This document shows, in pieces, positions 10,221 through 39,347 of a DNA stretch of 64,000 bases; positions within the stretch are counted from its first letter, which is position 1, and each line of letters starts with the position of its first letter. Under the pieces are notes generated by a model. That model was not told the DNA's origin and did not search any database. It worked only from the letters and a program-made list of their open reading frames with translations. A program made the translations under genes and the position numbers. The stretch is from Actinomyces sp. B33 (lineage in GTDB: Bacteria > Actinomycetota > Actinomycetes > Actinomycetales > Actinomycetaceae): NCBI RefSeq assembly GCF_028437565.1, contig NZ_JAMRYR010000003.1, positions 372,001 through 436,000 of the forward strand. The letters run 5' to 3'.

Positions 10221-10232
10221 CCGGACAGCCTA
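10221..10232 (-). promoter_or_regulatory. Putative leaderless promoter -10 box for fmt-rsmB
   Basis: TAGGCT at 10232-10227 (minus strand), 6 nt, then the GTG of fmt. It lies in the short gap after the priA stop. Confidence 0.5.
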
Positions 10233-10248
10233 GTCGAGGGGCGCGCGG

Positions 10249-12207: not shown

Positions 12208-12246
12208 GCCCCCATTGGACCACGAGGCGCGGGCATCTGCGTCGCC

Positions 12247-24205: not shown

Positions 24206-24775
24206 TCAGGCGCCCCTCCCCAGGAGGACGGCGTCGCGCCCGTCGGTCTCGGTCAGGAGGATCGTCACCGTCTCCTGGCGGGAGGTCGGCAGGTTCTTGC
24301 CGACGTAGTCGGGGCGGATCGGCAGTTCGCGGTGCCCCCGGTCGACGAGGACCGCCAGCTGCACCGAGGCGGGCCGCCCGATGCGGGTGAGCGCGTCGAG
24401 GGCGGCCTTGATGGTCCGCCCGGTGTAGAGGACGTCGTCGACGAGGACGACCGTGCGCCCCTCGATTCCCCGGTCGGGGACGATCGTCTCCCGCGGAGCC
24501 CTCAGGGGGCGCGAGGCGAGGTCGTCGCGGTCCATCGTCGTGTCGATGATCGCCAGGTCGGGGGTGGGGCCGCCGACCTCGGTGATCCTCGTGACGAGGC
24601 GGCGGGCGAGGACCGCGCCTCCGGTCGGGATGCCGGCGATGACGAGATCGTCGCCCCCGCCGTTGCGCTCGATGATCTCGAAAGAAATGCGGGTCAGGGA
24701 GCGGGCGACGTCGTCGGCCCCCAGGACTTCCTTGCCGCGGTTCGCTCGTTCGTCGGATGGGTGCACGGATCTCAT
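24206..24775 (-). CDS. pyrR: Pyrimidine operon regulator PyrR / uracil phosphoribosyltransferase
   Basis: 189 aa phosphoribosyltransferase-fold protein with the PRPP loop [20 protein letters not shown] (about residues 109-128) and [13 protein letters not shown]. PyrR binds pyr mRNA when UMP is high and lowers expression of the operon. It is the first gene of the pyr operon. A PyrR-type RNA hairpin lies right at its own ribosome site, pointing to translational autoregulation as described for mycobacteria. Confidence 0.96.
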
Positions 24776-24974: not shown

Positions 24975-25922
24975 TCAGGCGAGCAGCTCCTTGGCGGCTG
25001 CGACGATGCCGTCGACGGTGATGCCGTTCATCTCGAGGAGCTCCTCGTAGGTGGCCGACTGGCCGAACTGGTCCTGGATGCCGATCTGGCGGACTCGGGC
25101 GCCGCCGACCTCGGCGACGACCTGCGACACGGCCGCTCCCAGTCCGTGCATGATCGTGTGGTCCTCGGTCGTGACGATCCTGCCGGTCTCGATGCAGCGG
25201 AGCACCTCCTCGCGGTCGAGGGGCTTGATCGTGTGCATGTCGACGAGGCGCACGGACACGCCCTCGGCCTCGAGCCGCTCGGCGGCCTCGATCGCCAGGC
25301 GGACGGTGTCACCATTGGCGATGATCGCCACGTCGTCGCCCTCCCCCAGCACCTTCGCCTTGCCGATCTCGAAGACCTCGTCCTCGCCGTAGATCGCGGG
25401 GACGGCGTCGCGGGTGAAGCGCAGGAACATCGGCCCCTCCCAGTCGGCGGCCTCGCGCACGAGCTTGCGGGTCGAGTGGTAGTCGGCGGGCATGACGACG
25501 GTCATCCCCGGCAAGCCGCGCATCGTCCCCATGTCCTCGATGGCCTGGTGCGAGCCGCCGTCGTTGCCGGGGGTCAGCCCGCCGTGGGAGCAGGCGATCT
25601 TGACGTTGAGGTTCGGGTAGCAGATCGACTGGCGGATCTGCTCGGCCATGCGCAGGGAGCCGAAGACCGCGTAGGTGACGACGAAGGGGATCTTCCCCGT
25701 CGTCGCCAGGCCCGCGGCGACGCCCGCCCCGTTCTGCTCGGCGATGCCGACGTTGACGTGCTGGTCGGGCAGCGCCTTGGAGAACGCGGTCGTCTGGCAG
25801 GACTTCGCGATGTCGCAGTCGACGACGTAGACCTCGGGCCGCTCTTTACCCAGTTCGACGATCTCGTCGCCGAAGGCGTTGCGGGTGGGGAGCTTGTCGT
25901 CGTAGTTCACCTGGTACTTCAC
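24975..25922 (-). CDS. Transketolase, C-terminal (pyrimidine-binding and C-domain) subunit of a split enzyme
   Basis: 315 aa. It carries the pyrimidine-binding half of a thiamine-diphosphate transketolase, with the catalytic Glu in VNVGIAEQNGAGVAAGLA (about residues 58-75), CSHGGLTPGNDGGSHQ, and the transketolase C-domain. The GTG at 25922 overlaps the upstream subunit stop as GTGA, so the two halves are coupled and should form a heteromer. Split transketolases occur in substrate-specific pathways, such as apulose 4-phosphate or sulfofructose catabolism, as well as in general pentose metabolism. Here it closes an operon with TRAP and SDR genes, which suggests a dedicated catabolic role. The exact substrate is unknown. 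Confidence 0.92.
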   Translation of the reverse strand: MKYQVNYDDKLPTRNAFGDEIVELGKERPEVYVVDCDIAKSCQTTAFSKALPDQHVNVGIAEQNGAGVAAGLATTGKIPFVVTYAVFGSLRMAEQIRQSICYPNLNVKIACSHGGLTPGNDGGSHQAIEDMGTMRGLPGMTVVMPADYHSTRKLVREAADWEGPMFLRFTRDAVPAIYGEDEVFEIGKAKVLGEGDDVAIIANGDTVRLAIEAAERLEAEGVSVRLVDMHTIKPLDREEVLRCIETGRIVTTEDHTIMHGLGAAVSQVVAEVGGARVRQIGIQDQFGQSATYEELLEMNGITVDGIVAAAKELLA

Positions 25923-26758
25923 CGGTCGAGTCCCTTCTCGAGTTCTTCCATGGCCTGCTCCCACTGCTCCTGGTTCGGGGCGGCGCCGTGCCACGCGGCT
26001 TGGTCTTCCATGTAGGACACGCCCTTGCCCTTGATCGTCTTGAGGATCACGCCCTTGGGCTTGCCGTTCTTCAGCTCGCGGAGGCGGTCGAAGGCGTCGG
26101 AGATCGCCTGCATGTCGTGCCCGTCGATCTCGACGGCGTCGTAGCCGAAGGCCTCGAGCTTCTTGACGAAGTCGAGGTTGGGGCTGATCTCGTCGCAGTA
26201 GCCGTCAATCTGGAGGTTGTTGTCGTCGATGATGACGGTGAAGTTGTCGAGCTCGTAGGAGTTCGCGCACTGGATGGCCTCCCAGACCTGCCCCTCCTGC
26301 GTCTCCCCGTCGCCCAGGAGCGTGTAGACGCGGGAGTCGCGCCCGTCGCGCTTGAGGCCGAGGGCCATGCCGACGGCCGCGGAGATCCCCTGGCCGAGGG
26401 ACCCGGTGGAGATCTCGATGCCGGGGCATTTCTTCGAGTCCGGGTGGCCCTGGAATGGCGAGCCCTTCTTGCGCAGCGTGTGGATCGTGTCCATGGGGAC
26501 GAACCCCGTCAGGGCGAGGGCCGAGTAGACGATCGGCGCGACGTGCCCCTTCGACAGGACGAAGCGGTCGCGGTCCTCCCACGCGGGGTTCTTCGGGTCG
26601 AATCGCATCTCCCGGTAGTAGAGGTTCGCGATGACGTCCGCGGCGGACAGGGAACCTCCGGGGTGGCCGGACTTGGCCTCGTACACCATGGTCACTGCGG
26701 TTTTGCGCAGTTCCTTGGCACGCTCCTTCAGTTCGTCGGTCGAAATATTGTGCACCAT
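25919..26758 (-). CDS. Transketolase, N-terminal (thiamine-diphosphate-binding) subunit of a split enzyme
   Basis: 279 aa from the ATG at 26758. It binds the diphosphate end of ThDP: GDGETQEGQVWEAIQCANSY followed by the N of DDNNLQIDG is the GDG-N motif (about residues 150-180). HPGGSLSAADVIANLYY and SKGHVAPIVYSALA are also transketolase hallmarks. It lies 80 nt after dctM1, separated by a hairpin, and is coupled to the C-terminal subunit. No kinase or aldolase is in the same operon. Confidence 0.92.
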   Translation of the reverse strand: MVHNISTDELKERAKELRKTAVTMVYEAKSGHPGGSLSAADVIANLYYREMRFDPKNPAWEDRDRFVLSKGHVAPIVYSALALTGFVPMDTIHTLRKKGSPFQGHPDSKKCPGIEISTGSLGQGISAAVGMALGLKRDGRDSRVYTLLGDGETQEGQVWEAIQCANSYELDNFTVIIDDNNLQIDGYCDEISPNLDFVKKLEAFGYDAVEIDGHDMQAISDAFDRLRELKNGKPKGVILKTIKGKGVSYMEDQAAWHGAAPNQEQWEQAMEELEKGLDR

Positions 26759-26805
26759 GTGCGTGCTCTCATTTCTTCGGTGTCGGGGATTGGGCGGAGG
26801 TGGAG

Positions 26806-26831
26806 GCCCCCGGGGCGAGCGCCCCGGGGGC
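26806..26831 (-). terminator. Intercistronic hairpin between dctM1 and the transketolase genes
   Basis: Perfect 11-bp inverted repeat GCCCCCGGGGC / GCCCCGGGGGC with a 4-nt loop, 7 nt after the dctM1 stop. There is no T run, so it may be a partial terminator or mRNA-stabilising element that sets different levels for the transporter and the enzyme. Confidence 0.6.
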
Positions 26832-26838
26832 GCCTGGA

Positions 26839-28116
26839 TCACTGGGTCGGGATCAGCATGATGCCGGGCAGGTAGGCCACGGCCAGGACGAAGACCGCGA
26901 TGAGGAGGTAGAAGAGGGTGAGCTCTTTGGTGACCCTGTTGATCCCGACCCGGCCGATGCCGGCCGAGATGTACAGGGTCGTGCCCACCGGCGGCGTGTA
27001 CAGGCCCATGGCGAGGGTGCACACCATGAGGATGCCCAGGTGGATGGTCCCCATGCCGATCTCCTTGGCCAGCGGCATGAGCACGGGGGTCAGGAGGAGG
27101 ATCGCGGGGGCCATGTCGAGGAACATGCCGGTGACGACGAGGATGATGATGATGAAGAGGACGAGGACGAAGTAGTTCTCGGTCGTCGACAGCATCCACG
27201 TCGCGAGCTTCTGCGGGGCCTCCTGGATGGTCAGCAGCCAGGACAGCGCGGCGGAGAACATGATGAGGATCATGACGACCGCAGTAGAGGCCGCCGACTC
27301 GGCCATCGAGCGCATGAAGGACTTCCACGTCAGGTCCCGGTACATGGTCACGCGGATGAGGATCGCGTAGACCGCGGCCAGGACGGAGACCTCGGTGACC
27401 GTCGCCGTCCCGGTGAATAGGAAGACCCGGATGAGGACGACGGGGATGAGGATCGCGGGGGTGGCGATGAGCAGGTCCATGAGGAGCTTCTTCATCGTCA
27501 GCTTGGCGCGCACGCGCGGGTAGTTGTGCTTCCACGCGATGAACCAGCAGGCGAACATCAGGACGACGGCCATGACGAGCCCGGGGATCAGGCCGGCGTT
27601 GAAGATCGCCGCGACGGAGGCGCCGGATGCCGCCGAGAAGAGGATCATCGGAATGGACGGCGGGATGATGACGCCGAGGACGGAACTGGAGGCGTTGACG
27701 GCGGCCGCGTACTGGGCCGGATAGCCGATCCTCTTGGTCCACGGGATCATCACCTTGCCCAGGCCGGTCGCGTCGGCGACGGCCGAGCCCGAGACGCCGG
27801 CGAAGACGGCGTTGGTCAGGACCGAGGTCATCCCGACACCCCCGCGGAAGCGTCCGACGAGGCGGGTGGCCAGACCGATGACCTGGGCGCCGAGCCGCCC
27901 GGAGAAGAGCAGGTCGGCGGTGAGGATGAAGAAGGGAATGGCGAGCATCGAGTAATCGGTGGCGCCTCCGAAGGACTGTTGGGCGAGGGCCTCCATCGGC
28001 AGGGAGCCGATCGCGAAGAGGCCGACGATGGTTCCCGCGATGACCGAGAAGGCGACGGGGACGCCGATGAGCAGCAGGGCGATGAAGACGAAGATCGCGA
28101 GTCCGACCTCAAGCAT
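26839..28116 (-). CDS. dctM: TRAP transporter large permease DctM (system 1)
   Basis: 425 aa, about 11-12 hydrophobic helices, normal length for DctM. Family segments are FGGATDYSMLAIPFFI, AVFAGVSGSAVADATGLGKVMIP, VIIPPSIPMILF and MGLYTPPVGTTLYISAGI. It forms the sodium-coupled transport channel with DctQ and takes substrate, usually a carboxylate or sugar acid, from DctP. It overlaps dctQ by 8 nt. Base composition is GC-rich like the host, unlike the second TRAP operon. Confidence 0.95.
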   Translation of the reverse strand: MLEVGLAIFVFIALLLIGVPVAFSVIAGTIVGLFAIGSLPMEALAQQSFGGATDYSMLAIPFFILTADLLFSGRLGAQVIGLATRLVGRFRGGVGMTSVLTNAVFAGVSGSAVADATGLGKVMIPWTKRIGYPAQYAAAVNASSSVLGVIIPPSIPMILFSAASGASVAAIFNAGLIPGLVMAVVLMFACWFIAWKHNYPRVRAKLTMKKLLMDLLIATPAILIPVVLIRVFLFTGTATVTEVSVLAAVYAILIRVTMYRDLTWKSFMRSMAESAASTAVVMILIMFSAALSWLLTIQEAPQKLATWMLSTTENYFVLVLFIIIILVVTGMFLDMAPAILLLTPVLMPLAKEIGMGTIHLGILMVCTLAMGLYTPPVGTTLYISAGIGRVGINRVTKELTLFYLLIAVFVLAVAYLPGIMLIPTQ

Positions 28117-28735
28117 CGTGGGCCTCCTTGATGTTCTCCGCTGCCGCCTGGTCGTAGGTGACCTCGATCGAGCGGATCGCGCCGTCCTTGTGGAAGTACC
28201 AGGCGCGGACGATGGACTGAATGCACAGGCACGTCGTCATGACGATGAAGGCCGCGAAGGATCCGAGCTGGGGCCATCCCATGATGGGGGTCTCCTGCTG
28301 CGACATCGGGCCGGCCATGTAGATGCCGAGGTAGGTCATGTACGCCATGAGGACGGCGACGAAGACCCAGATCCCGGTGGCGATCCTCTGATACGCCTTG
28401 CCCTGGAACTTCTCGAGGAAGAAGTTGACGCCGACGTGGGCCATCTGGGCCTGGGCGACGACGGCTCCCGCGGCGATGAGCCACGGCAGGAGGTACGAGG
28501 GGGCCTCGGAGGCCAGATCGATCGACGAGTTGAAGATGTAGCGCATGGCGACCGCGACCGTGACCAGGAGGATCATGACGATGGTCAGCGCGCAGGCGAA
28601 CCAGGATCCGACCCGCAGGAACCACTGGTTGATCGGGTCGGTGGCCTCGAGCGGCTCGTCGAGGACGGACTGCGTGTCGAGTGCGGCAATGTCGTCTTCG
28701 GTGATGACGGCGCCATGGGGTGTCGTATCGCTCAT
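28109..28735 (-). CDS. dctQ: TRAP transporter small permease DctQ (system 1)
   Basis: 208 aa with four hydrophobic helices (about residues 45-67, 82-100, 123-145, 160-180) and the typical HVGVNFFLEKF segment after helix two. An N-terminal acidic tail of about 35 residues makes it longer than many DctQ proteins. Placed between dctP and dctM in the usual P-Q-M order. The ATG has an AGGGAAGGAGT ribosome site. Confidence 0.9.
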   Translation of the reverse strand: MSDTTPHGAVITEDDIAALDTQSVLDEPLEATDPINQWFLRVGSWFACALTIVMILLVTVAVAMRYIFNSSIDLASEAPSYLLPWLIAAGAVVAQAQMAHVGVNFFLEKFQGKAYQRIATGIWVFVAVLMAYMTYLGIYMAGPMSQQETPIMGWPQLGSFAAFIVMTTCLCIQSIVRAWYFHKDGAIRSIEVTYDQAAAENIKEAHDA

Positions 28736-28738
28736 CGG

Positions 28739-29773
28739 TCACTCCTTCCCTGCGAAATCGGCGCGGTTGGCCTGCGCGGCCTCGGTGATCTTCTGGAAGA
28801 ACTCGGGGTACTTGGCCTGCCACTGGTCGTAGACGGGTTTTGTCGCCTCGCGGAACGCGTCCTTGTCGGGATGGGTCACGGTCAGCGACTGCTCGAATTC
28901 GTCGTAGATCGCCTCGGTCTGCTCGGCCATGAGATCGCGCTGATAGTCGCGGGCCTCATCGGCGGCCTCCTGGATGATCTTCTGCTGGTCGGGGGTCAGC
29001 CGGGCCCACCGCATCGTCGAGATGACGAAGGGGTTGGTCTCGTACTTGTGCCCGGTGGAGGCCAGGTGGGGCTGGACCTCGTTGAGCTTGGAGCTCTTGA
29101 TGTTGACGACGGGGTTCTCCTGCCCGTCGACGGCGCCGGTGCGCAGGGCGAGGTAGAGCTCGCCGAAGGCCATGGGCGTCGGGTTGGCCCCGAGCTGGTT
29201 GAAGATCGAGATCGTCATCGTGTCGTCGGGGGTGCGGATCTTCAGGCCCTTGAGGTCGTCGGGCGTGTTGATCTCGCGCTTGGAGTTGGTGATGTCGCGC
29301 AGGCCGTTGTCCCAGAACCCGAGGACGTGGAAGCCCGCGGGCTCGGCCTCCTCGGCGAGGTAGTTGTGGATCTCGTCGTCGTCAACGATCGAGTAGGCGT
29401 GCTCGGAGTTCTCGAAGAGGAAGGGAAGGCCGATGAGGGCGGCCTCGGGGACGTAGGTGGCGAACGGTCCCTGCGAGTTGATCGACATGTCGAGAGTGCC
29501 GGAGGACACCGAGACCATCATCTCCGAGTCGGATCCGACGGCCTCCTGACCGAGGATCTGGACGTCGATCGTGTGGTTGGATTTGGCCTCCACGAGCTCC
29601 TCGAACTTCAGGGCGGCTTCCGATCGGGGGTTCCCGGGGGCGGCGCCGTGGCCGAGGATGATGCGGATGGAGTCCGTGGCGCGGGGGCCCGCCCCGCCGG
29701 CGCAGCCGGCGAGGAGGGTCGTGGCGGCGATGACAGCGGCAAGGCCGCTGACGACGGATGTGCGTCGCAGCAT
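28739..29773 (-). CDS. dctP: TRAP transporter substrate-binding lipoprotein DctP (system 1)
   Basis: 344 aa from the ATG at 29773 (AAGGAG 8 nt upstream). A lipobox LLAGC (Cys about residue 24) predicts a membrane-anchored extracellular binder. DctP hallmarks include DLKGLKIRTPDD with the Arg that usually grips the substrate carboxylate, AFGELYLALRTGAVDGQENP, and the C-terminal long helix. It probably binds a sugar acid or other carboxylate; the ligand cannot be read from sequence. It directly follows the SDR gene. Confidence 0.94.
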   Translation of the reverse strand: MLRRTSVVSGLAAVIAATTLLAGCAGGAGPRATDSIRIILGHGAAPGNPRSEAALKFEELVEAKSNHTIDVQILGQEAVGSDSEMMVSVSSGTLDMSINSQGPFATYVPEAALIGLPFLFENSEHAYSIVDDDEIHNYLAEEAEPAGFHVLGFWDNGLRDITNSKREINTPDDLKGLKIRTPDDTMTISIFNQLGANPTPMAFGELYLALRTGAVDGQENPVVNIKSSKLNEVQPHLASTGHKYETNPFVISTMRWARLTPDQQKIIQEAADEARDYQRDLMAEQTEAIYDEFEQSLTVTHPDKDAFREATKPVYDQWQAKYPEFFQKITEAAQANRADFAGKE

Positions 29774-29820
29774 GGCATCGTCTCCTTTGACGGTGGTGAT
29801 GGGAAGGGGGCGCTCGAGGC

Positions 29821-30597
29821 TCAGGAGATGTAGGTGCCGCCGTTGATGGAGTGGGTGCAGCCGGTGATGTAGGCGGCGTCCTCGGAGGACAGCCAGCAGA
29901 TCAGGGCGGCGATCTCCCACGGCTCGGCCTGGCGCCCGAGCGGAACGGCCTCGGCGAGCTTCTTCTCGGTCTCGTCGTCGCTGCCGACGCGGATCTCGGT
30001 GTTGACGACGCCGGGGGCGACCGCATTGACGGTGATCCCGTATTCGGCGAGTTCACGGGCCATTCCGCGGGTCAGGCCCAGGACGCCGGCCTTGGCTGCC
30101 GCGTAGGAGGTCTTGGAGAAGACGCCGCCACCGTGCTGGGCGGTGACCGAGGAGGTGTTGACGACGCGACCGTACCCGTTCTCGATCATCAGGGGCACGA
30201 GGGCCTGGGCGAGGAGGAAGGAGCCGGTGAGGTTGACGGCGAGGACCTTGTTCCAGGTGGCCAGATCGAGCTCGAGGAAGCCCATCGGCGAGGGGATGCC
30301 GGCGATGTTCGCCAGGGCTCCGACCGGGGGGAGGTCGGAGGCCGTAATGGCCTCGACGACGGCGGTCACGGACTCGGGGTCGGCGACGTTGACGGCGAAG
30401 GCCTGGACCGGGGCCTCGGGGACTTCGGCGCGAACGGCCTCGGCGGCGGCTGTGGCGCCTTCCTCGTTGATGTCCAGCATCGCGACGCCCCAGCCTTCGC
30501 GGGCGAAGCGCAGAGCGGTCTGGTATCCGATGCCCTTCAAGGACGATGTTCCGGTGACGACAGCGGTGCGCTGTCCGACTCCTGTGCCGTAGCTCAT
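29821..30597 (-). CDS. Short-chain dehydrogenase/reductase
   Basis: 258 aa from the ATG at 30597 (GAGAGA ribosome site). Classical SDR layout: the nucleotide motif reads TGTSSLKGIG, two residues longer than the usual TGxxxGIG, then NIAG (about 97-100), the catalytic Ser in NTSS (about 147-150), and YAAAK (Tyr about 165, Lys about 169). The C-terminus GCTHSINGGTYIS is typical. It should oxidise or reduce a hydroxyl group of the substrate taken up by the adjacent TRAP system. First gene of the operon behind shared operator-like repeats. Confidence 0.93.
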   Translation of the reverse strand: MSYGTGVGQRTAVVTGTSSLKGIGYQTALRFAREGWGVAMLDINEEGATAAAEAVRAEVPEAPVQAFAVNVADPESVTAVVEAITASDLPPVGALANIAGIPSPMGFLELDLATWNKVLAVNLTGSFLLAQALVPLMIENGYGRVVNTSSVTAQHGGGVFSKTSYAAAKAGVLGLTRGMARELAEYGITVNAVAPGVVNTEIRVGSDDETEKKLAEAVPLGRQAEPWEIAALICWLSSEDAAYITGCTHSINGGTYIS

Positions 30598-30642
30598 TGA
30601 TTCTCTCCACATCAGTGTGACGGCGAGCACCATCGCCCACCG

Positions 30643-30682
30643 CTGTTAACAGTAAACAATATGAGGAAACATTGTCAACAAT
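30643..30682 (-). promoter_or_regulatory. Promoter with overlapping palindromic operators for the SDR-TRAP1-transketolase operon
   Basis: Minus strand: TTGACA (30678-30673), 18-nt spacer, TACTGT (30654-30649). Palindrome ATTGT-CA-ACAAT (30671-30682) covers the -35, and CTGTTAACAG (30643-30652) overlaps the -10. The same element types recur upstream of the divergent TRAP2 operon, so the GntR protein between them is the likely binder. Confidence 0.7.
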
Positions 30683-30774
30683 AGATGTGGAGGATAGTGC
30701 AGAAGCCCTTCTTCACCCGGAAGGCGAGCGGATCTCCTGCGCTCCACACCCCGGCCAGGGGCGTCAGAACCGAC

Positions 30775-31467
30775 TCATTCGATGCCGACGATGTCCCGGG
30801 GATCCTGTGCGCGCTTCTGCCATACGCCGCCGGAGTTGCGCATATGCTCGACGATCGCATGACGGGCCCGCTCCGAATCCCCAGAGCGCAGCGCCGCGAT
30901 GATCGGACGATGATAATCGGTGTCCATCAGCCGCGGCCGCTCGTCGGACTCGTCGGCGAGGACGGCGACGCGCATCCGATCCTGGAGTTGGCGCCACATG
31001 TCGAGCAGCACCGTGTTCCCCGAAGCCGCGCACAGCGCCTCATGGAAGCCCAGATCGATGTCGAGCCTCTCGTTAAGGGTCATCCCCGGTTCGAAGGCCG
31101 GCAGCTTCGCCTCGATCTCGTCGACCAGCTCGTCGCACCGAGGCGACTGGACGATGTGGACGGCGGCCAACGCCTCGAGCGCGCCGCGGACTTCGTACAG
31201 CTCGACGACCTCCTCGGCGCTCTGCTGCGTCACCCGCAGGCCCATCCTGTCCTCTCCAACGACGAGGCCGGACTGCTGAAGGCGGCGCAATGCCTCGCGG
31301 ACCGTTCCCCTGCTGACCCCCAGCTGCTCGGCGAGATCGACTTCACCGAGTCGTTGCCCAGCACTCAACCGCCCCTCGAGAATCGCAGACCTCAAGGACT
31401 CCCAGACCTGCTCGCGCAGCGTCTGACCGCTCACACTTGGAATGCTCAACTCAACCGCCTTCTTCAT
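30775..31467 (-). CDS. GntR-family transcriptional regulator with FCD domain
   Basis: 230 aa. N-terminal winged helix-turn-helix with the GntR signature SAGQRLGEVDLAEQLGVSRG followed by TVREALRRL (about residues 36-65). The C-terminal all-alpha FCD domain (about 85-215) has the metal-binding pattern: Asp in DIDLGFHEAL, and later histidines in DTDYHRPII and ARHAIVEHM. FCD proteins sense carboxylates and sugar acids. It sits between two TRAP operons whose promoters share palindromes, so it probably represses both until the substrate is present. GC-rich like the host. Confidence 0.93.
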   Translation of the reverse strand: MKKAVELSIPSVSGQTLREQVWESLRSAILEGRLSAGQRLGEVDLAEQLGVSRGTVREALRRLQQSGLVVGEDRMGLRVTQQSAEEVVELYEVRGALEALAAVHIVQSPRCDELVDEIEAKLPAFEPGMTLNERLDIDLGFHEALCAASGNTVLLDMWRQLQDRMRVAVLADESDERPRLMDTDYHRPIIAALRSGDSERARHAIVEHMRNSGGVWQKRAQDPRDIVGIE

Positions 31468-31609
31468 TACGCCCTGCCCTGCGCATGTGCTGGACCGCTA
31501 GACGTAGTTAAACACTCGCGGAGTTCATCCTGACGCAACACGATCACGCAGGCGAGTGCGCCGCGGCATGCAGCCCTCTTTATCTGCGGGAGGAAGCATA
31601 GCCGCAAAA

Positions 31610-31653
31610 CAGTTAAAACTGACCAATAAGTCAGTTTTTTGACCATGAGGTCA
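31610..31653. repeat. Cluster of inverted repeats upstream of the TRAP2 promoter
   Basis: Three overlapping or adjacent palindromes: CAGTT-AA-AACTG (31610-31621), AACTGAC-CAATAA-GTCAGTT (31617-31636, followed by TTTT) and TGACC-ATGA-GGTCA (31640-31653). The middle one resembles a small rho-independent terminator; together they look like a multi-site operator. Confidence 0.55.
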
Positions 31654-31677
31654 GTCCTCTGATGACGCGGAACACCT

Positions 31678-31706
31678 TTGACATTGTGTTACAGCGCACA
31701 TATTGT
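31678..31706 (+). promoter_or_regulatory. Sigma-70-type promoter of the TRAP2 operon
   Basis: TTGACA (31678-31683), exactly 17 nt, then TATTGT (31701-31706): a near-consensus promoter. Transcription should begin near 31713, giving a leader of about 165 nt before the ATG at 31880. Confidence 0.8.
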
Positions 31707-31730
31707 CAACAGTAAGCAGTTAACCAACTG
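31702..31730 (+). promoter_or_regulatory. Operator-like repeats overlapping the TRAP2 -10 box
   Basis: ATTGTCAACAGT (31702-31713) differs little from ATTGTCAACAAT at 30671-30682, and CAGTT-AACC-AACTG (31717-31730) is a palindrome of the same family as CAGTTAAAACTG at 31610. A protein bound here would cover the -10 and the start site, so repression is likely. Confidence 0.6.
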
Positions 31731-31879
31731 TTTCAAGTCATGAGTTTCTTCCGGGCACACTGTCGTAACCGGTAGCCCTCCTAAAGGTTGTCATCAGTCG
31801 CGCCAGGAAACAGTCAAATAAATCTGCCTCATGACAGCAGCAATGGCGCTGCCACCATCAACAGTGGAAGGACCACCCC

Positions 31880-33034
31880 ATGTCGACACGTCGTGTCTAC
31901 TCAGCCACGCTGACCCTCATGGCTGCCACAGCCCTTGGAATCTCAGCTTGCGGCGGCGGTATCTCTGAGACCGCAACCCAAAGCTCAACAGGCTCAACTC
32001 CATCAACGAAGATCCAGGCCGCGGCTGATGGCGTAGTGCTGAGCTATACGACACAGCACACGGAGAGCACTCCCTTGAGTCGCGCCATTCAAAAGTACGG
32101 CGAACAGGTAGCGGAAGCCACAGAAGGTCGGGTCACATTCGAAAACTACTACTCTGCGCAGCTCCTTCCCGCGGCAGAGGTCGTCAACGGCATCGGTGAT
32201 GGCCGCGCCGACACCGGCTACGTCGTTGACGTGATGTTCGCCGATCAACTCCCGCTCACGAACTCTTCCTCCATTCCCTTCGATCGAACGAATGGGGTCG
32301 CCCAGGCTCAGGCGTACCAGAAAATGTATGAAGAGAATGAAGCTTTCAAAGCAGAGTATGAGAAGCTCGGGCTTCACGTCCTTAGCTTTTTGCCCATGGG
32401 GGAAACCATCCTGGGAAGTACTTTTAAAGTCGATACCCTCGAAGACCTTAAAGGGCATTCGGTTCGCTGCCTAGGATTCATCTGCGAAGCATATGAAAAA
32501 ATCGGTGGGCATCCTGCGGCAATCGCTTCGAACGAGATATATGAAGCCATGGATCGGAAAACCATCGACGGTTGGGCAGGATATCCTTTCATGGATGTTC
32601 CCGCTACACAGCTCCAGGAAGTCAGCCCAAATATGACACTTATCGGTCTTGGGCAATACTCCCAGGGAGTTTTCCCAATCAGCGAAAGTGTCTGGGAGAA
32701 GATCTCTCCGGAAGATCAGAAAGTGATGACCGAACTCGCTTCCAAGCTCCCCGAAATGATCGCCGAAGAGAACCTCAAAGCCGAAGGAGAAGCATGCGAG
32801 GTGACCACTGAGGCGAATGTGACCCTCTCGTCAATGGCTGACGAGGAAGTCAACAAGTGGAAAGAGGTCGTCTACGGCCCCATCTACGACAAATGGGTAG
32901 AAGCAGCGAGTCAGAAGAGCGGAACAGACGCCGACGCCTTTTACAAGGACCTGATGAGCGCATATGAGGAAATCTTGAAGGAAACGAACTTCAAATCCTC
33001 CTTCGTCGAGTGCTCTGAAAAATCTCAGCGATGA
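31880..33034 (+). CDS. dctP: TRAP transporter substrate-binding lipoprotein DctP (system 2)
   Basis: 384 aa, with ribosome site GGAAGGA about 7 nt before the ATG. Lipobox GISAC (Cys about residue 24). The DctP fold is seen in LLPAAEVVNGIGDGRADTGY, DTLEDLKGHSVRCLG (with the conserved Arg) and NEIYEAMDRKTIDGW. It is only distantly like the first DctP, so its ligand may differ. Codons ending in A or T are frequent, unlike the flanking genes, a sign of recent acquisition. The C-terminus has extra Cys residues (GEACEV, FVECSEK). Confidence 0.93.
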   Translation: MSTRRVYSATLTLMAATALGISACGGGISETATQSSTGSTPSTKIQAAADGVVLSYTTQHTESTPLSRAIQKYGEQVAEATEGRVTFENYYSAQLLPAAEVVNGIGDGRADTGYVVDVMFADQLPLTNSSSIPFDRTNGVAQAQAYQKMYEENEAFKAEYEKLGLHVLSFLPMGETILGSTFKVDTLEDLKGHSVRCLGFICEAYEKIGGHPAAIASNEIYEAMDRKTIDGWAGYPFMDVPATQLQEVSPNMTLIGLGQYSQGVFPISESVWEKISPEDQKVMTELASKLPEMIAEENLKAEGEACEVTTEANVTLSSMADEEVNKWKEVVYGPIYDKWVEAASQKSGTDADAFYKDLMSAYEEILKETNFKSSFVECSEKSQR

Positions 33035-33040
33035 GGTTGC

Positions 33041-33082
33041 ATGAGGGTTCGGGGCCCTTTAATAAGGGCCCCGAACCCTCAT
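33041..33082 (+). terminator. 17-bp perfect hairpin between dctP2 and dctQ2
   Basis: ATGAGGGTTCGGGGCCC (33041-33057), an 8-nt AT loop, and the exact complement (33066-33082). It begins 7 nt after the dctP2 stop and there is no T run. Likely an attenuator or stability element that gives more binding protein than permease mRNA, a common layout in transport operons. Confidence 0.65.
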
Positions 33083-33101
33083 CGATGGAAAGCAGGCCAA
33101 C

Positions 33102-33629
33102 TTGATTATTAAATCACTTGTCCAACGCGCATCCCAAGCCTTGGGACTCATTAGCGCAATTGCGACTCTATTCCTAATGCTCTTGACTGTTACTGACGTC
33201 ATTAGTCGATTGATCACTGGAGGATCAGTTCCAGGTCTCCTGGAGTTTACTGAAGTAGCTCTCGTTTTTCTCGTATTTTGCGGTATTGCGTACGGTCAGC
33301 AACAGAAAACGCATGTTGCCGTTACCCTCGTCACCTCTCGCCTACCCGAGAGGATCGGCCGAACGGTTGTAGTCCTGGGTCTTTTGATCATTCTTGCTCT
33401 ATTCGCCTGGGCCACTTTTGCGACCGGAAGTCAAGCACTCGATTCCGTCATGCGACAGGAAGCACGTTTCGGTCTCGCCGCTGTTCCTATTTGGCCTGCT
33501 CGAGTTGTCCTCCCGATTGGATTCTTCTTGCTTTTTGGTGAAACCCTAATACAATTACTCAATGTCATCGGCGGCCGCGAAAAAATTCGAGAGGAATCTC
33601 TTCCCGTAGAAAGTGAGATCCTCTCATGA
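33102..33629 (+). CDS. dctQ: TRAP transporter small permease DctQ (system 2)
   Basis: 175 aa with four hydrophobic helices (about residues 15-35, 47-65, 85-108, 125-150) and the segment YGQQQKTHVAVTLVTSRLP typical after helix two. The start is TTG with only a weak AGCAGG site 5 nt upstream; no better in-frame start exists before the first helix. Low-GC codon use. It overlaps dctM2 as ATGA. Confidence 0.88.
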   Translation: MIIKSLVQRASQALGLISAIATLFLMLLTVTDVISRLITGGSVPGLLEFTEVALVFLVFCGIAYGQQQKTHVAVTLVTSRLPERIGRTVVVLGLLIILALFAWATFATGSQALDSVMRQEARFGLAAVPIWPARVVLPIGFFLLFGETLIQLLNVIGGREKIREESLPVESEILS

Positions 33630-34963
33630 GCGGTGAACTTATTGCCATCATTGCTATAGCAATTCTTCTTGTCCTCCTCGCAGCTCGCGTTCCCGTTGGT
33701 TTCAGTCTGCTAACCGCTGGCATTGCCGGCCTTTTCATGCTCAACGGATTCAGTATTGCCAATACCGCACTTGCAACAGAAACCTATACAGCAGTCGCCA
33801 AATCGACGATGGTCGTTATTCCAATGTTCATCCTCATGGGGATGTTCGCCATGGAATCCGGAGTTGCCGTCGGAGCTTTCCGTCTAGCAAACAAGGTCGT
33901 TGGAAAACTTCCCGGTGGTCTCGGAATCGCGACGGTTCTCGTCTGCGCAGTATTTGCTGCGGTATCCGGTTCCAGTCCGGCCACGGTCGCGACGGTGGGA
34001 CGAATTACCATCCCAGAAATGCGCAAGGCCGGATACTCTAGGGAGTTCACTGCTGGAATCATCGGAACTGCGGGGACTCTGGGCGTCCTCATCCCTCCGA
34101 GTATTGTCGCCGTAGTCTTCGGGGTGACCACCGAAGTCTCGATCGGAAAGTTGCTCATCGGAGGAATCCTTCCGGGTGTCGTTTCAGTGCTGGTGATGTC
34201 GACGTACATCGTTGCGACTGCGATCCGGCATCCCGAGAAGGTCAATGACCGTTCCTATGTGTCTTCCAGAAATGAAGACCTCTCAGAAAAGAGTTCTCGA
34301 GAGGATCTTTACGCTCTGATCGGCGTTGGAATAATGTTCGTCGTTGTTATCGGAGGAATTTATACCGGTCTGACGACGGCAACCGAATCTGCAGCTTTTG
34401 GCGCACTCGCCGGACTTTCGGTTCTCATTGTCGCGCAGATCAAAAAAGGATGGCGAGCCCTGTACAGCGCCTTTGTGAAATCTCTGAAGGAGGCCGCTGC
34501 CACAACAACAATGATCTTCGTAATCATGATCGGCGCTAGTGTTTTCACAAACTTCCTCGTCCGCTCCGGAGCTACGAAGACCGTTGCCGATGCCATTCTC
34601 GGTCTGGGCCTCTCTCCATATCTCCTCGTTTTGGGAACTCTGATCATTCTCATCCCGCTGGGCATGTTCCTCGAGACTGTTTCAATTATTCTCATCACGA
34701 TGCCAATTCTCTGGCCGATGCTCGAATCCGTCGGCGTCAATGGCGTTTGGCTCGGAATCATGACCATCATCATGATTGAAATCGGACTCATGACTCCCCC
34801 AGTAGGAATCAACGCCTTTGTTCTGACCGGAATCGCAGAAGATATCACTCTCGGACAAACATTCAAGGGCTTGACTCCTTTTGTCCTCGTTCAGCTTGTC
34901 ATCGTTGGATTAATTTTCTCCTTCCCTGGAATCGTGACATTGCTTCCAAGCTTGATGCGATAG
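33626..34963 (+). CDS. dctM: TRAP transporter large permease DctM (system 2)
   Basis: 445 aa, slightly longer than system 1, about 12 hydrophobic helices. DctM motifs: AVFAAVSGSSPATVATVGRI, LGVLIPPSIVAVVFG, and GLMTPPVGINAFVLTGIA. Translation is coupled to dctQ2 through an ATGA overlap. Low-GC composition like the rest of this operon. Confidence 0.95.
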   Translation: MSGELIAIIAIAILLVLLAARVPVGFSLLTAGIAGLFMLNGFSIANTALATETYTAVAKSTMVVIPMFILMGMFAMESGVAVGAFRLANKVVGKLPGGLGIATVLVCAVFAAVSGSSPATVATVGRITIPEMRKAGYSREFTAGIIGTAGTLGVLIPPSIVAVVFGVTTEVSIGKLLIGGILPGVVSVLVMSTYIVATAIRHPEKVNDRSYVSSRNEDLSEKSSREDLYALIGVGIMFVVVIGGIYTGLTTATESAAFGALAGLSVLIVAQIKKGWRALYSAFVKSLKEAAATTTMIFVIMIGASVFTNFLVRSGATKTVADAILGLGLSPYLLVLGTLIILIPLGMFLETVSIILITMPILWPMLESVGVNGVWLGIMTIIMIEIGLMTPPVGINAFVLTGIAEDITLGQTFKGLTPFVLVQLVIVGLIFSFPGIVTLLPSLMR

Positions 34964-35023
34964 AGACTGAGAAGAGATCTCTGCCTTCCAATGAAGGGAA
35001 TCTAAAGACAAGGATCGTTAATC

Positions 35024-35890
35024 ATGGTTGAAAAAGTTACATTCGTAGGCATCGGAGCCATCGGACTCCCAATGGCCGTAAGAATTGCAGAAGCGGGCTT
35101 CTCAGTTATTGGAGTGGATCCCTTCGAGGCACAGCGAGAGCTCGCATCGTCTCATGGTCTCGTTGCAGAAATGGACTCACGATCGGCTGCAGATGCTGAT
35201 ACGGTCGTCTGCATGGTGGCCACGCCAGCACAACTTGTCAGTGCCACCCTAGGGTCCAAGGGCCTTTTGGAAAGAATGCGGGCTGGATCTACATTGATCG
35301 TGATGAGCACTGTCGGCCCTGATGCTATTACTCAGTTGATTCCTGCAGCAGAACAAAATGGGGTTCATTTATTAGATGTCCCGGTCACAGGCGGAGTGGC
35401 CGGAGCCAAAAAAGGTTCCCTCACTCTCTTCGCATCTGGATCCCCTGAAATCATTGAGCAAAACGCTCCTCTTTTGACTTCGATGGGAAGAATACTCGAC
35501 TGCGGTGCAACTCCAGGTCGAGGGCAATCATATAAGATCGTCAATCAGCTTCTCTGCTCTGTTCATATCGTTGCAGCCGCGGAAGCACTTGCCTTTGCGG
35601 AAAAACTCGGTCTGGAACCAGCAAATGCATTGGCTGCTGTTGAAAAAGGAGCCGGAGGCTCCTGGATGCTGTCGGATCGCGGTCCCAGAATGCTCGAAGG
35701 ACTTGACGCGGAAGTGACAAGCGCCATTGATATCTTCGTCAAGGATTCGACTCTTGTATCCGATACGGCTGATCGCATTGGTTTTGACGCACCGCTCGTC
35801 AAATTGGCGCAACAGAAGTATCAGCAGATGCATGATCTTGGGCACGGAAGAAAAGACGATTCTCAGGTCATCCAGACATATCGGAACTAG
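35024..35890 (+). CDS. Beta-hydroxyacid dehydrogenase (3-hydroxyisobutyrate/threonate dehydrogenase family)
   Basis: 288 aa NAD(P)-dependent enzyme. Rossmann motif GIGAIG (residues 9-14), substrate-binding motif DVPVTGGVAGAKKGSLTL (about 118-134), catalytic Lys about residue 171 with N174 in KIVNQLLCSVHIVAAAEALA. From memory the last stretch is closest to the L-threonate dehydrogenase branch (LtnD), not to 6-phosphogluconate dehydrogenase. It would oxidise a 2-hydroxy acid taken up by TRAP system 2. The partner genes of the known threonate pathway (kinase OtnK, aldolase OtnC) are absent. Low-GC; last gene before a strong terminator. Confidence 0.9.
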   Translation: MVEKVTFVGIGAIGLPMAVRIAEAGFSVIGVDPFEAQRELASSHGLVAEMDSRSAADADTVVCMVATPAQLVSATLGSKGLLERMRAGSTLIVMSTVGPDAITQLIPAAEQNGVHLLDVPVTGGVAGAKKGSLTLFASGSPEIIEQNAPLLTSMGRILDCGATPGRGQSYKIVNQLLCSVHIVAAAEALAFAEKLGLEPANALAAVEKGAGGSWMLSDRGPRMLEGLDAEVTSAIDIFVKDSTLVSDTADRIGFDAPLVKLAQQKYQQMHDLGHGRKDDSQVIQTYRN

Positions 35891-35895
35891 GGCCG

Positions 35896-35933
35896 AAAAG
35901 TGGGGGGCCTCCGTCGGACGCCCCCCACTTTTT
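35896..35933. terminator. Bidirectional rho-independent terminator
   Basis: Perfect 13-bp stem AAAAGTGGGGGGC / GCCCCCCACTTTT with an 11-nt loop; it ends in TTTTT on the plus strand and starts with AAAA, giving a T run on the minus strand too. It separates the plus-strand TRAP2 operon from the convergent nusB and marks the edge of the accessory island. Confidence 0.93.
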
Positions 35934-35955
35934 GGATGAATAGATTGAAGACGAT

Positions 35956-36642
35956 TCAGTACTCGTCGAGCAATTCATCGAGCTCGTCGAGGTCCTCGAC
36001 GGACAACCCCTCATCGGACGAAACGCCTTCCGGCTCGACGGCAATAGGATCGGCGCCTCCGCCGACCCGCGGGTCCTCGTCGACGCGCTCCGCGATGAAA
36101 AGATCCCCCGTCTCGTCGGCATCCAGGACCGTGTCGGCCCGATCCCCCTCGACGTCCTCCGCCGAATCCTCGGCGCCGGCCGATCGGCGCGACCACGCCG
36201 GGGACTCGATGTCCCGCCGCACCGCGTCGAGAACCGCGTTGACGAACGCCGGCGACGTGTCCGTCGAGATCGACTTGACGATCGCGATGGCCTCATCGAT
36301 GGCGATCACCGGCGAGACGTCCTCGGAATTCTCCAGCATCTCCCACACGGCCACGCGCATGACCGCCAAGTCGACGGCCGCGATCCGATCGAGCCCCGAG
36401 ACCCGGGCGTGCGCCGCCAGCAGATCGTCGATCGACCGCAGACGGTCGGCGACCCCCTCGATCAGACGGATCGAGTACTCCGGCAGCGGGGTCAGCGCGG
36501 CCGTGACGACCTTTCGCTCGCGCAACAGATCCCGCAGGACCTGCGGATTGCGGCCCATGCCGCGCTGATCCGCCTCGAAGACCACATCGGCAGCGCGCTT
36601 GCGCGCCTTCGTCCGAGAGGTGAAGCGGTGCTGCTTCGACAT
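35956..36642 (-). CDS. nusB: Transcription antitermination factor NusB with long acidic tail
   Basis: 228 aa. The NusB fold spans about residues 1-145 (ARKRAADVVFEADQRG, DLAVMRVAVWEML, VIAIDEAIAIVKSISTD, SPAFVNAVLDAVRRD). A strongly acidic tail of about 75 residues follows, ending in DELDELLDEY; ordinary NusB proteins are about 140-150 aa. NusB with NusE promotes antitermination on rRNA operons. Its ATG overlaps the efp stop as TGATG. In relatives pyrR usually follows, but here the accessory island intervenes. Confidence 0.94.
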   Translation of the reverse strand: MSKQHRFTSRTKARKRAADVVFEADQRGMGRNPQVLRDLLRERKVVTAALTPLPEYSIRLIEGVADRLRSIDDLLAAHARVSGLDRIAAVDLAVMRVAVWEMLENSEDVSPVIAIDEAIAIVKSISTDTSPAFVNAVLDAVRRDIESPAWSRRSAGAEDSAEDVEGDRADTVLDADETGDLFIAERVDEDPRVGGGADPIAVEPEGVSSDEGLSVEDLDELDELLDEY

Positions 36643-37210: not shown

Positions 37211-37765
37211 TTACCTCGCTTCGGGGGGATGTGAATCGCCCGCCAGTCTACACGCCGCGATCACCTCATCGGCGACCCGCTCCGGGGTCACGCCGTCCGT
37301 CCCCACTGAGTGATCCGCCACGGCAGTCGCGGCCCCGTGGACCTCGGCGATCATGCCCGCGAGCACCGCGCGCGGAGCCCCCAGGGCCGCCGAGCGCGGG
37401 GCGTTGAGCCCCATCCGGCGGGCCACGTCCGCGATGGACACGGACAGCTCGACGACCAGCGCCCCCGCCGACCTCGCCCTGCCCAGCGACTCGACGACCA
37501 CCGGGTCGAGGACCTGCGACGCGCCGATCGACACCACCGCGCCCGAACGCGACAGGGCCTCGAGGGCCGCCCCGCGGCGCGCCTCGTCGAAGCCCTCCGC
37601 CCCATGGATGATGAGCTCGGCCACCGGCGCGCCCATCCGCTCGGCCACCAGTGCGTCGGCCTCGACGAACCCGACCCCCAGGCGCTCGGCGACGAGGGCC
37701 CCGACAACGGTCTTGCCCGCCCCCGACGCCCCCACGAGGACGATCAACGGCGCCTCACTGCCCAC
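37211..37765 (-). CDS. Shikimate kinase-like P-loop protein, probably inactive as shikimate kinase
   Basis: 184 aa from the second of two adjacent GTG codons (37765, with AGGGGG 6 nt upstream). It has a good P-loop [19 protein letters not shown], but the shikimate-binding residues are lost: the DxD site reads VEADALV, the FR motif reads FDEAR, and the GGG motif of shikimate kinase reads IGAS. It lies directly after aroKB, which already carries a complete shikimate kinase domain, and overlaps its end by 11 nt. It may be a regulatory or repurposed paralogue. Confidence 0.75.
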
Positions 37766-39347
37766 CACGAGCCCCCTGCTCGAGGACGGCGGACACCTCA
37801 TCGGCGGCCACGGGCTCGACGACGGGCCGTTGGAGCCCGTCGAGCAGGACGAAGCGCAGAACGCCACCGCGGACCTTCTTATCGGAGGCCATCGCGTCGA
37901 GCAGGCCCTCCGGATCCCCCTCGTACGACGTCGGCAGACCCACCCGGGAGAAGAGCCCGACGTGCCGATCGACCTCAGCCTGCGAGAGCATCCCGCGTGA
38001 GGCGGCCAGACGGGCCGCGAAGACGCAGCCGACGGCGACCGCGTCGCCGTGCCGCCACGAGTAGTCCTCGCAGCGCTCGATCGCATGAGCGAGGGTGTGA
38101 CCGTAGTTGAGGATCTCCCGCAGCCCCGCCTCGGTAAGATCGGCACCCACGACCCGCGCCTTGACGAGCGCCGACCGGTGGATCAGCTCGCGCAGCACCG
38201 AGGAGCCGGGATCGATGAGCTCCGAATCCCCGGCGCCCTCGACGAGATCGAGGATCCTCGGGTCGTCGATGAACCCGCACTTGACGACCTCGCCCAGTCC
38301 GGCCCGCAGATCGGCCGCAGGAAGCGTCTCGAGCATCGTCAGATCGCACACGACCCGGCGGGGCGAGTGGAACGAGCCGACGAGGTTCTTCCCCGTCGCC
38401 GTGTTGATCCCCGTCTTGCCGCCGATCGCCGCATCGACCATCGCCAGCAGCGTCGTCGGGATGTTAACGAGGTCGACGCCGCGCAGCCACGTCGCCGCAA
38501 CGAACCCCGCCATGTCCGTCGTCGCCCCGCCGCCCAGCGCCACGACCGCGTCGGCCCGGCCCAGGCGGAAGCGCCCGGCCTCGTCCCACAGGCGGGCGAC
38601 CGCCTCCAGGGTCTTGCCCGCCTCGGCGTCCGGGTGGTCGGCGAGACTGACCGCCAGCCCCCTGTCCTCGAGGCCGCGCGCGAGTCGGCGCGCGGGCCCC
38701 TCCAGGGCTCGGGCGTGGACGACGAGGACGCGCGTCGCCTCGGGCCTGAGGACCTCGGTGACGAGGCCCGCCTGGTCCCCGCGCCCGATGAGGACGTCGT
38801 AGGGAGCGGCCCCGCCCACGCGCACCCGGCCCCACGCCGGGTCGACGGCCTCCAGGATCCGATCGGCGACGTCGCGCGCGGGCCCGGAATCGGAGCGCAG
38901 GCGCAGCGTCTCGACCTGCTCGTACAGCGGCGAGCGCTCGGCCCTCAGGCGGCGCAGGGCGCCGGCCGGGTCGTCGCGCAGCAGCGGTCGGTGCGACGCG
39001 CGGGAGGTCCGGCGCACCAGCTCGTCGTGCTCGACGTCGAGGTGGACGACGTCGTGGCCGGCGAGGAGCTCGCGCACCCGGGGGGTGACGACGGCGCCCC
39101 CGCCCAGGGAGACGACGGCCCGCATCCCCAGGGCGCGTTCGACGGCGCGGGCCTCGCGGGCGCGGAAGCCCTCCTCGCCCTCGGAGGCGAACACCTCGGC
39201 GACGCTCATCCCGGCCTCGGCCTCGACGAGCGCATCGGTATCGACGTGGGGCGCCCCCAGGTCGGCGGCGACGAGGCGGCCGACCTTCGATTTGCCGGCG
39301 CCGGGCAGTCCGACGAGGACGACGGGCAGGCGGAGGCGGGCCGTCAT
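37755..39347 (-). CDS. aroKB: Bifunctional shikimate kinase / 3-dehydroquinate synthase (AroKB fusion)
   Basis: 530 aa fusion. Residues about 1-165 are shikimate kinase: P-loop [31 protein letters not shown], and the GGG motif in VSLGGGAVV. Residues about 175-530 are 3-dehydroquinate synthase: [47 protein letters not shown] and the metal His in [11 protein letters not shown]. It thus catalyses steps two and five of the shikimate pathway. Similar fusions occur in bifidobacteria and Actinomyces. Its ATG overlaps the aroC stop as ATGA. Confidence 0.96.

Follow-up and report, generated by a model that had tools for sequence, protein, structure and literature searches.

In the sulfo-transketolase pathway the split transketolase (TK) SqwGH is reported to transfer a C2 unit from an unphosphorylated sulfo-ketose to glyceraldehyde-3-phosphate (G3P) (PMC11659671), and the known route for threonate is reported to run through LtnD, OtnI, OtnK and OtnC (PMC12540250). 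A cluster with two transketolases, reported to use a CUT2 ABC importer (PMC3333776), differs from the operon considered here. The subject of this work is the interval between nusB and pyrR in a stretch of 64,000 nucleotides from Actinomyces sp. B33 (NZ_JAMRYR010000003.1, positions 372,001 to 436,000), referred to below as the window, which is part of a 466 kb contig in a genome of 2.28 Mb. The interval holds a split TK together with two dehydrogenases, two TRAP importers and a GntR/FCD regulator. In the D-apiose pathway the split TK AptAB is likewise encoded in an operon with an importer, its donor being phosphorylated by a kinase.

The genes in the window fall into two units of different composition, the same operator-like site precedes both, and the dehydrogenase of each unit has close homologues beside split TKs in other bacteria. 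Tentatively, these observations are read as two operons under common control that serve the use of a small hydroxy-carboxylate, likeliest a tetronic acid, which would be degraded by oxidation and then TK cleavage of the unphosphorylated keto acid.

Eleven genes lie between pyrR (24206-24775, minus strand) and nusB (35956-36642, minus strand), one more than the initial annotation had counted. Gene calls and domain scans (Pfam only for DctQ1 and DctQ2, NCBIfam only for DctM2) otherwise bear out its account of a catabolic gene set with two complete TRAP importers, DctP, DctQ and DctM standing in one operon in each, and with two dehydrogenases and a heteromeric TK; no kinase, aldolase or isomerase was found among the eleven genes by Pfam and NCBIfam. 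The seven minus-strand genes make up operon 1 (GntR/FCD-SDR-DctPQM-split TK, where SDR is a short-chain dehydrogenase/reductase), and the four plus-strand genes encode TRAP system 2 and a HIBADH-family dehydrogenase (HIB):

24975..25922, minus strand: C-terminal half of the split TK (pyrimidine-binding and C-terminal domains, PF02779 and PF02780), GTG start
25919..26758, minus strand: N-terminal half of the split TK (thiamine diphosphate (ThDP) domain, PF00456), overlapping the C-half by 4 bases; 6yak N-chain, E 4.2e-93
26839..28116, minus strand: DctM1, large permease of TRAP system 1 (PF06808; TIGR00786 above cut-off)
28109..28735, minus strand: DctQ1, small permease of TRAP system 1 (PF04290)
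28739..29773, minus strand: DctP1, binding protein of TRAP system 1 (TIGR00787 above cut-off; R159, R180 and N220 kept)
29821..30597, minus strand: FabG-like SDR dehydrogenase (PF13561; clade alignment; best NCBIfam models FabG-type, under their cut-offs)
30775..31467, minus strand: GntR/FCD regulator (PF00392 and PF07729), present in all five congener operons at 55-73% identity
31880..33034, plus strand: DctP2, divergent binding protein of TRAP system 2 (PF03480)
33102..33629, plus strand: DctQ2, small permease of TRAP system 2 (PF04290)
33626..34963, plus strand: DctM2, large permease of TRAP system 2 (TIGR00786 above cut-off)
35024..35890, plus strand: HIB, a HIBADH-family beta-hydroxyacid dehydrogenase (closest to the L-threonate dehydrogenase model, at 236 bits against a cut-off of 350)

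The ThDP half and the pyrimidine/C-terminal half of the TK are adjacent separate open reading frames (ORFs) homologous to 6yak/6yaj, the closest solved relative of the C-half being the C-chain of the Carboxydothermus split TK (E 5.8e-93).

The shared operator-like site and the origin of the two units

Four further elements were placed in the interval:

30644..30658, plus strand: operator-like site TGTTAACAGTAAACA, preceding the SDR gene (motif search and congener comparison)
31704..31718, plus strand: operator-like site TGTCAACAGTAAGCA, in front of TRAP system 2 (motif search and congener comparison)
31678..31706, plus strand: sigma70-like promoter TTGACA-17-TATTGT towards TRAP system 2 (10 of 12 matches), its second hexamer overlapping the operator-like site
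about 35893..35938, both strands: two-way terminator-like hairpin between HIB and nusB (folding energy)

A 15-base site, TGTYAACAGTARRYA, precedes the SDR gene in all five congeners that carry operon 1, with one copy in each 19-kb locus, and sites of this type occur twice in the window, before the SDR (30644) and before DctP2 (31704). For the 12-base core, the best mismatches summed over seven regions came to 4, against at least 17 in 20 block-shuffled sets. The genome was scanned with the pattern TGTYAACAGTAARCA, broadened to include both window sites; it matches exactly at these two places only, with nothing more at up to one mismatch and one further match at two mismatches, while a reversed control pattern has one match at up to two mismatches. 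Furthermore, a consensus built from the five congener sites, with the window sites set aside, likewise fits both of the latter exactly. The GntR/FCD protein may bind these predicted sites, and the module is apparently both recurrent and co-regulated. Promoter-like sites in the region number 4, against 2.1 +/- 1.5 in shuffles, which as a count is not clearly above chance. Separately, a 10-pair palindrome, AAAACTGACTTATTGGTCAGTTTT, lies at 31615-31638 upstream of the GntR gene with a further TGACC/GGTCA half nearby, and could be a second operator.

The two units differ sharply in GC content at third codon positions (GC3). This is 0.82-0.97 from the TK C-half to GntR and 0.87-0.95 in seven flanking genes; in the second unit it is 0.61 for DctP2, 0.44 for DctQ2, 0.56 for DctM2 and 0.46 for HIB. 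Operon 1 (6.5 kb) occupies the nusB-pyrR site in five of 34 congeners (G004, G005, G007, G015 and G020), always in the order nusB-GntR-SDR-P-Q-M-TKN-TKC-pyrR in gaps of 7.0-7.7 kb, with SDRs 77-88% and TK N-halves 78-92% identical to those of the window. The TRAP2-HIB unit comprises 4.0 kb of genes in the 4.5 kb between GntR and nusB. A genus-wide search with two of its proteins, DctP2 and HIB, gave no DctP2 match at E<=1e-20 in the 34 genomes and a best HIB match of 43% identity. The search for a donor of DctP2 gave no close source, the best relatives being 32% identical among 394 genomes of the class and 31% identical among 72,556 plasmids, and mapping of the insert breakpoints found no informative homology in the nusB-GntR gap. 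Since five congeners hold operon 1 only, DctP2 has no match in the 34 genomes and GC3 differs, operon 1 is resident and TRAP2-HIB most simply a recent arrival.

A single insertion of about 11 kb, as first proposed, is ruled out by the congeners with the 6.5 kb part only and by the split in GC3. A recent import of operon 1 is ruled out as regards composition by its GC3 of 0.82-0.97, even if its TK falls together with those of Lachnospiraceae and a planctomycete. Island-free junctions do exist, as had been anticipated: of the 34 congener gaps, taken from NusB and PyrR matches, 14 are under 1.9 kb, five hold operon 1, ten hold other DNA of 3.5-10.6 kb and one has the two genes 105 kb apart, while four genomes have no PyrR match. 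The short gaps are not always empty, L079 and L080 each containing one ORF of about 395 amino acids. The nusB-pyrR site is variable across the genus. The ten junctions with other cargo (L069-L078), some with similar small proteins side by side, mark it as a hotspot; labelled by eye, this cargo includes glycosidases with a major facilitator superfamily (MFS) gene (L069), MMPL with TetR (L077), and MFS and/or small proteins (L070-L076).

Outside the interval, the flanking genes were as first described, with pyrR, pyrB and pyrC on one side and nusB, efp and aroC on the other, except that aroK and aroB, listed as two genes, are here one fused ORF. An unassigned ORF as called (37211-38146) overlaps the end of this fusion (37755-39347) by about 390 bases, and its true start is probably further in. 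The strong bidirectional terminator described at the end of the island finds support in the hairpin between HIB and nusB, which folds strongly on both strands (-35.2 kcal/mol, z -7.8, on the plus strand; -33.3 kcal/mol, z -4.9, on the minus strand), though a simple terminator scan gave no entry for it.

Pairing of the dehydrogenases with split transketolases

The SDR alignment, run against 84,980 species genomes, gave 577 confirmed candidates, of which the best 80 were used; in 51 of these loci the SDR is at least 50% identical ("close"), and neighbours were counted within 6.5 kb. Many of the close loci are from Arthrobacter or Pseudarthrobacter and so are not independent, and some stop at contig ends. 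A split TK is present in 45 of the 51, 23 of these 45 having neither a DAK-type kinase nor RpiB in range, and in 4 of the 29 loci of lower identity; the six close loci without TK are L089, L100, L122, L129, L132 and L138. The other neighbours in the close loci are GntR (47), an MHS-type MFS permease (43), a TIM barrel (39), a DAK kinase (24), RpiB (23), a TRAP binding protein (4) and HIB (3). For the MHS-type permease the best model is metabolite/H+ symporter and the nearest named one shikimate transporter, both under cut-off. Among 94 plasmid records with the SDR, eight were opened, picked to cover genera (two Rhizobium, two Bradyrhizobium, and one each of Agrobacterium, Pantoea, Klebsiella and Arthrobacter), and all eight have a split TK in the same gene run; the TK N-half adjoins the SDR in six and is separated from it by one MFS gene in two. 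The neighbourhood of the TK halves and the SDR, proposed at the outset as a check, is shared well beyond the window. The operon reads SDR-TKN-TKC-DctP-DctQ-DctM in the two Rhizobium records and the Agrobacterium record. Identity to DctP1 is 45-46% for the DctP of these three and 31% for that of the two Bradyrhizobium records. More distant loci with SDR, split TK and TRAP come from Lachnospiraceae (L154), Treponema (L144), Spirochaetales (L149) and a planctomycete (L163, TK 6-7 kb away). A D-2-hydroxyacid dehydrogenase with similarity to glyoxylate reductase, under the cut-off of that model, is also present in L154 and in L161, the latter a short contig that has no TK.

Similar results were obtained with HIB. 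At E<=1e-70 it was found in five of the 394 class genomes besides the window (52-60% identical), with a split TK adjoining in all five. Three of these loci (L181-L183) read GntR-HIB-GntP permease-TKN-TKC with no SDR match nearby; L184 reads SDR-GntP-HIB-TK, and L185 reads HIB-MFS-TK with a FabG-like ORF beside the TK. For PRK09821, which is YgbN of the E. coli tetronate operon, the GntP permeases of L181, L182 and L183 score 500, 514 and 510 of 524 bits. For the general gluconate symporter model they are above cut-off; the permeases of L129 and L184 are under both cut-offs. Four plasmid matches to HIB are at least 50% identical, and the three opened read TKN-TKC-HIB-MFS (Paraburkholderia, Pantoea and Klebsiella). 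The last of these, Klebsiella aerogenes plasmid pYD-K10_1 (L191, 5120-9191), is typed conjugative, so that this form can travel. A further plasmid match (42% identical) has another oxidoreductase as its neighbour, and its locus carries a four-carbon acid sugar kinase in place of TK. In two Brevibacterium-type genomes of a 118-genome set (G094 and G110; HIB 53 and 51% identical) there is no TK match, and SDR, TIM barrel, DAK kinase and RpiB stand beside HIB. Of the ten close homologues found independently of the SDR (51-60%), eight are next to a split TK and two next to the SDR. The probable recent arrival, TRAP2-HIB, brought in a known partner of the SDR-TK module. A minimal operon of SDR, split TK and importer, or of HIB, split TK and importer, recurs in distant bacteria.

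The phylogenies are quick ones with SH-aLRT support only, built from 68 of 95 collected SDR rows, near-duplicates having been dropped, and 48 of 73 paired TK rows, the proteobacterial plasmid TKs being left out. In the SDR tree the genus of the window is nested among actinobacterial SDRs (15-row set, support 99, which includes L089, a contig labelled as a Gammaproteobacteria metagenome-assembled genome). In the TK tree it groups with L154 and L163 (8 rows, 100) inside an 18-row set (99), apart from a 29-row actinobacterial TK clade (99). The two trees place the genus differently, which indicates that the TK gave way to one of another lineage, a split TK remaining the partner of the SDR throughout.

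Active-site residues were compared across 84 aligned TK C-half rows, with two MAFFT modes as a check on the alignment; the residue numbers follow a mixed numbering. In 59 rows, all from loci found through SDR or HIB, Y stands at S386 and at F434 and L at H461, D469 is lost, R520 is kept and R359 is mostly changed. This altered signature argues for a non-standard donor that would be common to SDR- and HIB-type operons. The window TK and nine relatives keep R, S, H, D and R, only the change of F434 to Y separating them from the Carboxydothermus enzyme at these positions; the window TK is near-canonical and argues neither way on the donor.

Two other split TKs were seen. One is in the same genome (C1:476000-495900, L059), with an ABC sugar transporter, FGGY kinase, DhaK/DhaL and RpiB-like genes, and by eye resembles an apiose or erythritol type locus. 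The other, from a family member (L060, G062:C64, about 6150-13940), lies in what by eye is an allantoin and glyoxylate carboligase cluster; it has Y at the F434 position and N and E at two neighbours, and is possibly another TK tied to glyoxylate.

The predicted pathway and its rivals

In the proposed scheme TRAP system 1 would import the acid and the SDR, with NAD, would oxidise one hydroxyl to give a keto acid ending in HOCH2-CO-. The split TK would then move the C2 ketol from this unphosphorylated keto acid to G3P, giving xylulose-5-phosphate (Xu5P) and a short aldehyde acid; with a tetronate, it would split 3-oxo-tetronate into the C2 unit and glyoxylate. No kinase, aldolase or isomerase would be required. 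TRAP system 2 and HIB could act as a second importer and a second dehydrogenase feeding the same TK, perhaps with another isomer, and the GntR/FCD protein would bind before both operons and come off the DNA once substrate or an intermediate is present. The usual target of FabG-like SDRs and HIBADH enzymes is the hydroxyl of the beta carbon, and among straight-chain aldonates only the C4 acids have a beta carbon that is also the terminal ketol carbon; because both enzyme families commonly act at this carbon, the tetronic acids threonate and erythronate would be the likeliest substrates. Given that the minimal operon recurs in distant bacteria, working without a kinase may be the very purpose of the pathway.

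The carboxylate triad of DctP1, R159, R180 and N220, corresponds in alignment to R152, R173 and N213 of 4P47. Two arginines and one asparagine are named as the carboxylate-binding residues of TRAP proteins, and solved relatives of the isethionate-binding protein are reported to have held pantoate, erythronate or sugar acids (PMC11668362). These residues and the transporter types of the relatives agree with the sugar acid or related carboxylate originally suggested as substrate.

Several observations weigh against a tetronate substrate or the proposed reactions. The second-best solved relative of DctP1, 7BBR, which is one of these structures, is reported to have held a C6 acid, 2-keto-3-deoxy-gluconate (PMC11668362), and L181-L183 have GntP permeases above the gluconate symporter cut-off; transport alone does not favour a C4 substrate. 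Two of the three carboxylate residues are missing from DctP2, where only R196 was found, in weak alignments. The best of the 15 NCBIfam models listed for HIB, at the sub-threshold score given above, is L-threonate dehydrogenase, an enzyme reported to yield a 2-oxo acid (PMC12540250); a 2-oxo product would need an isomerase, which the island lacks. A kinase-type tetronate route seems to be present elsewhere in the genome, where a HIB paralogue on contig 7 (C7:97900-100330; L204 7904-10328), 42% identical to the window HIB and scoring slightly higher for L-threonate dehydrogenase (246.5 of 350 bits), adjoins a four-carbon acid sugar kinase (PF07005, 169.6 bits). No glyoxylate carboligase (Gcl) scores above cut-off in the genome, and no glyoxylate sink was identified there. 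The window TK keeps the canonical phosphate residues, so that nothing in its active site calls for an unphosphorylated donor. Finally, the close SDR loci frequently add a DAK kinase (24 of 51), RpiB (23) or a TIM barrel (39), and the pairing counts come without a formal background rate. The DAK kinase in about half of the close relatives could salvage dihydroxyacetone formed by spontaneous decarboxylation of the beta-keto acid, and the RpiB of L067, which passes the ribose-5-phosphate isomerase cut-off (190 of 168) and fails the DerI one (138 of 240), would help to recycle Xu5P.

Possible but doubtful is a broader version of the tetronate scheme, a widespread kinase-free route in which interchangeable SDR and HIBADH dehydrogenases make 3-oxo-tetronate and a dedicated two-subunit TK yields glyoxylate and Xu5P. 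The organism of the window would then have gained further substrates only recently, through capture of a second unit of importer and dehydrogenase, in which the operator of the resident repressor either came along or evolved.

Alternatively, and rather unlikely, the substrate is a longer acid: the SDR would make the penultimate ketone (4-keto-pentonate or 5-keto-hexonate), the TK would free tartronate or tartaric semialdehyde, and HIB would come last, reducing it. An engineered TK is reported to turn 5-keto-gluconate into tartaric semialdehyde (PMC12016104, PMC11066805), the genome has a tartronate semialdehyde reductase (357.6 bits against a cut-off of 340.75) and a glycerate kinase (C1:446.9-452.7k), and both the ligand of 7BBR and the GntP permeases of L181-L183 would suit such an acid. 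Yet in L181-L183, L190 and L191 HIB stands with TK and no SDR match is nearby (L185 has an SDR-like ORF), which leaves HIB without a ketone-making partner there. The signature common to SDR-linked and HIB-linked TKs also speaks against it, and the 25 best models shown for the window SDR include none for gluconate 5-dehydrogenase.

It is improbable that the SDR product loses CO2, or is erythrulose, and passes through a kinase and isomerases (LerK/DerI type) to erythrose-4-phosphate, the TK merely handling the latter. The DAK and RpiB genes of the close SDR loci, a TpiA-like gene in the Brevibacterium-type locus L061 and the phosphate residues of the window TK would all suit this route. However, the window operon has neither kinase nor RpiB, and the five congener operons, with the same order and gaps, leave little spare room. 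Neither gene is annotated in the opened Rhizobium, Bradyrhizobium, Agrobacterium and Pantoea plasmid operons or matched beside the Propionibacterium ones, the RpiB of L067 is not of DerI type by score, and DAK may have the salvage role suggested above.

There is likewise little probability that TRAP2-HIB and SDR-TK are unrelated cargo at one variable site. The other DNA in 10 of 34 nusB-pyrR gaps, the sharp difference in composition and the unlikeness of DctP2 to DctP1 are as this would predict, but the operator-like site precedes both units and occurs nowhere else in the genome at up to one mismatch, and the ten close HIB homologues all pair with split TK or SDR. Least probable is oxidation of glycerate to tartronate semialdehyde or to hydroxypyruvate, the latter an irreversible TK donor (CO2 being released), for which TIM barrels weakly similar to hydroxypyruvate isomerase or IolE (39 of 51 close SDR loci) and the D-2-hydroxyacid dehydrogenase beside the SDR in two Lachnospiraceae loci can be cited, since glycerate kinase offers this genome a shorter route and the minimal operons, including that of the window, have no isomerase.

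If the proposed regulon is correct, TK, seen as an enzyme of sugar phosphates, would also be the committed step of a sugar-acid pathway. The gene pairing occurs in Actinomycetota, Pseudomonadota, Bacillota, Spirochaetota and Planctomycetota, and the proposal would account for many genes called "transketolase" and "SDR" that neighbour TRAP and MFS importers in plant- and host-associated bacteria. Because L-threonate is reported to be one of the main compounds formed when vitamin C is degraded in plants (PMC12540250), a route for it that had escaped notice would be relevant to carbon flow in plants and the gut. The window itself offers what is probably a horizontally gained importer-enzyme unit carrying the operator-like site of the resident operon.

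Comparison with known systems

Among the known pathways tested, the gene set fits none, as the initial annotation had supposed. No description of an SDR-TK or HIB-TK operon was found in searches of one open-access library, which is weak evidence of absence as most subscription papers were outside this scope. The system would be a variant of TK-dependent catabolic operons, with a predicted substrate.

Nearest in predicted chemistry is the sulfo-TK pathway, in which a two-subunit TK (SqwGH), an unphosphorylated anionic ketose, G3P as acceptor, Xu5P as product and a short aldehyde left for a reductase are likewise reported (PMC11659671). In contrast to that pathway, the eleven genes include no SQ isomerase or SqwI, a carboxylate would be imported by TRAP and a dehydrogenase would take the first step; furthermore, the headgroup motif of the window TK is RSYHR, that reported for SqwGH being RAFDR (PMC11659671). 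Points in common with the LtnD-OtnI-OtnK-OtnC route are HIB, whose nearest model is L-threonate dehydrogenase, and the GntP permeases nearest PRK09821 in the HIB-TK operons of L181-L183. Unlike that route, the island has a split TK in place of kinase, isomerase and decarboxylating aldolase: OtnK, OtnI and OtnC are absent from it, the PF07005 kinase is on another contig and the L-threonate dehydrogenase cut-off is not reached. The D-apiose operon with AptAB differs from this one in that no sugar kinase is among the eleven genes here. The Carboxydothermus split TK (6yak/6yaj), for which no catabolic role was seen named, is the closest solved structure for both halves of the window enzyme; the window C-half has Y against F at the F434 position.

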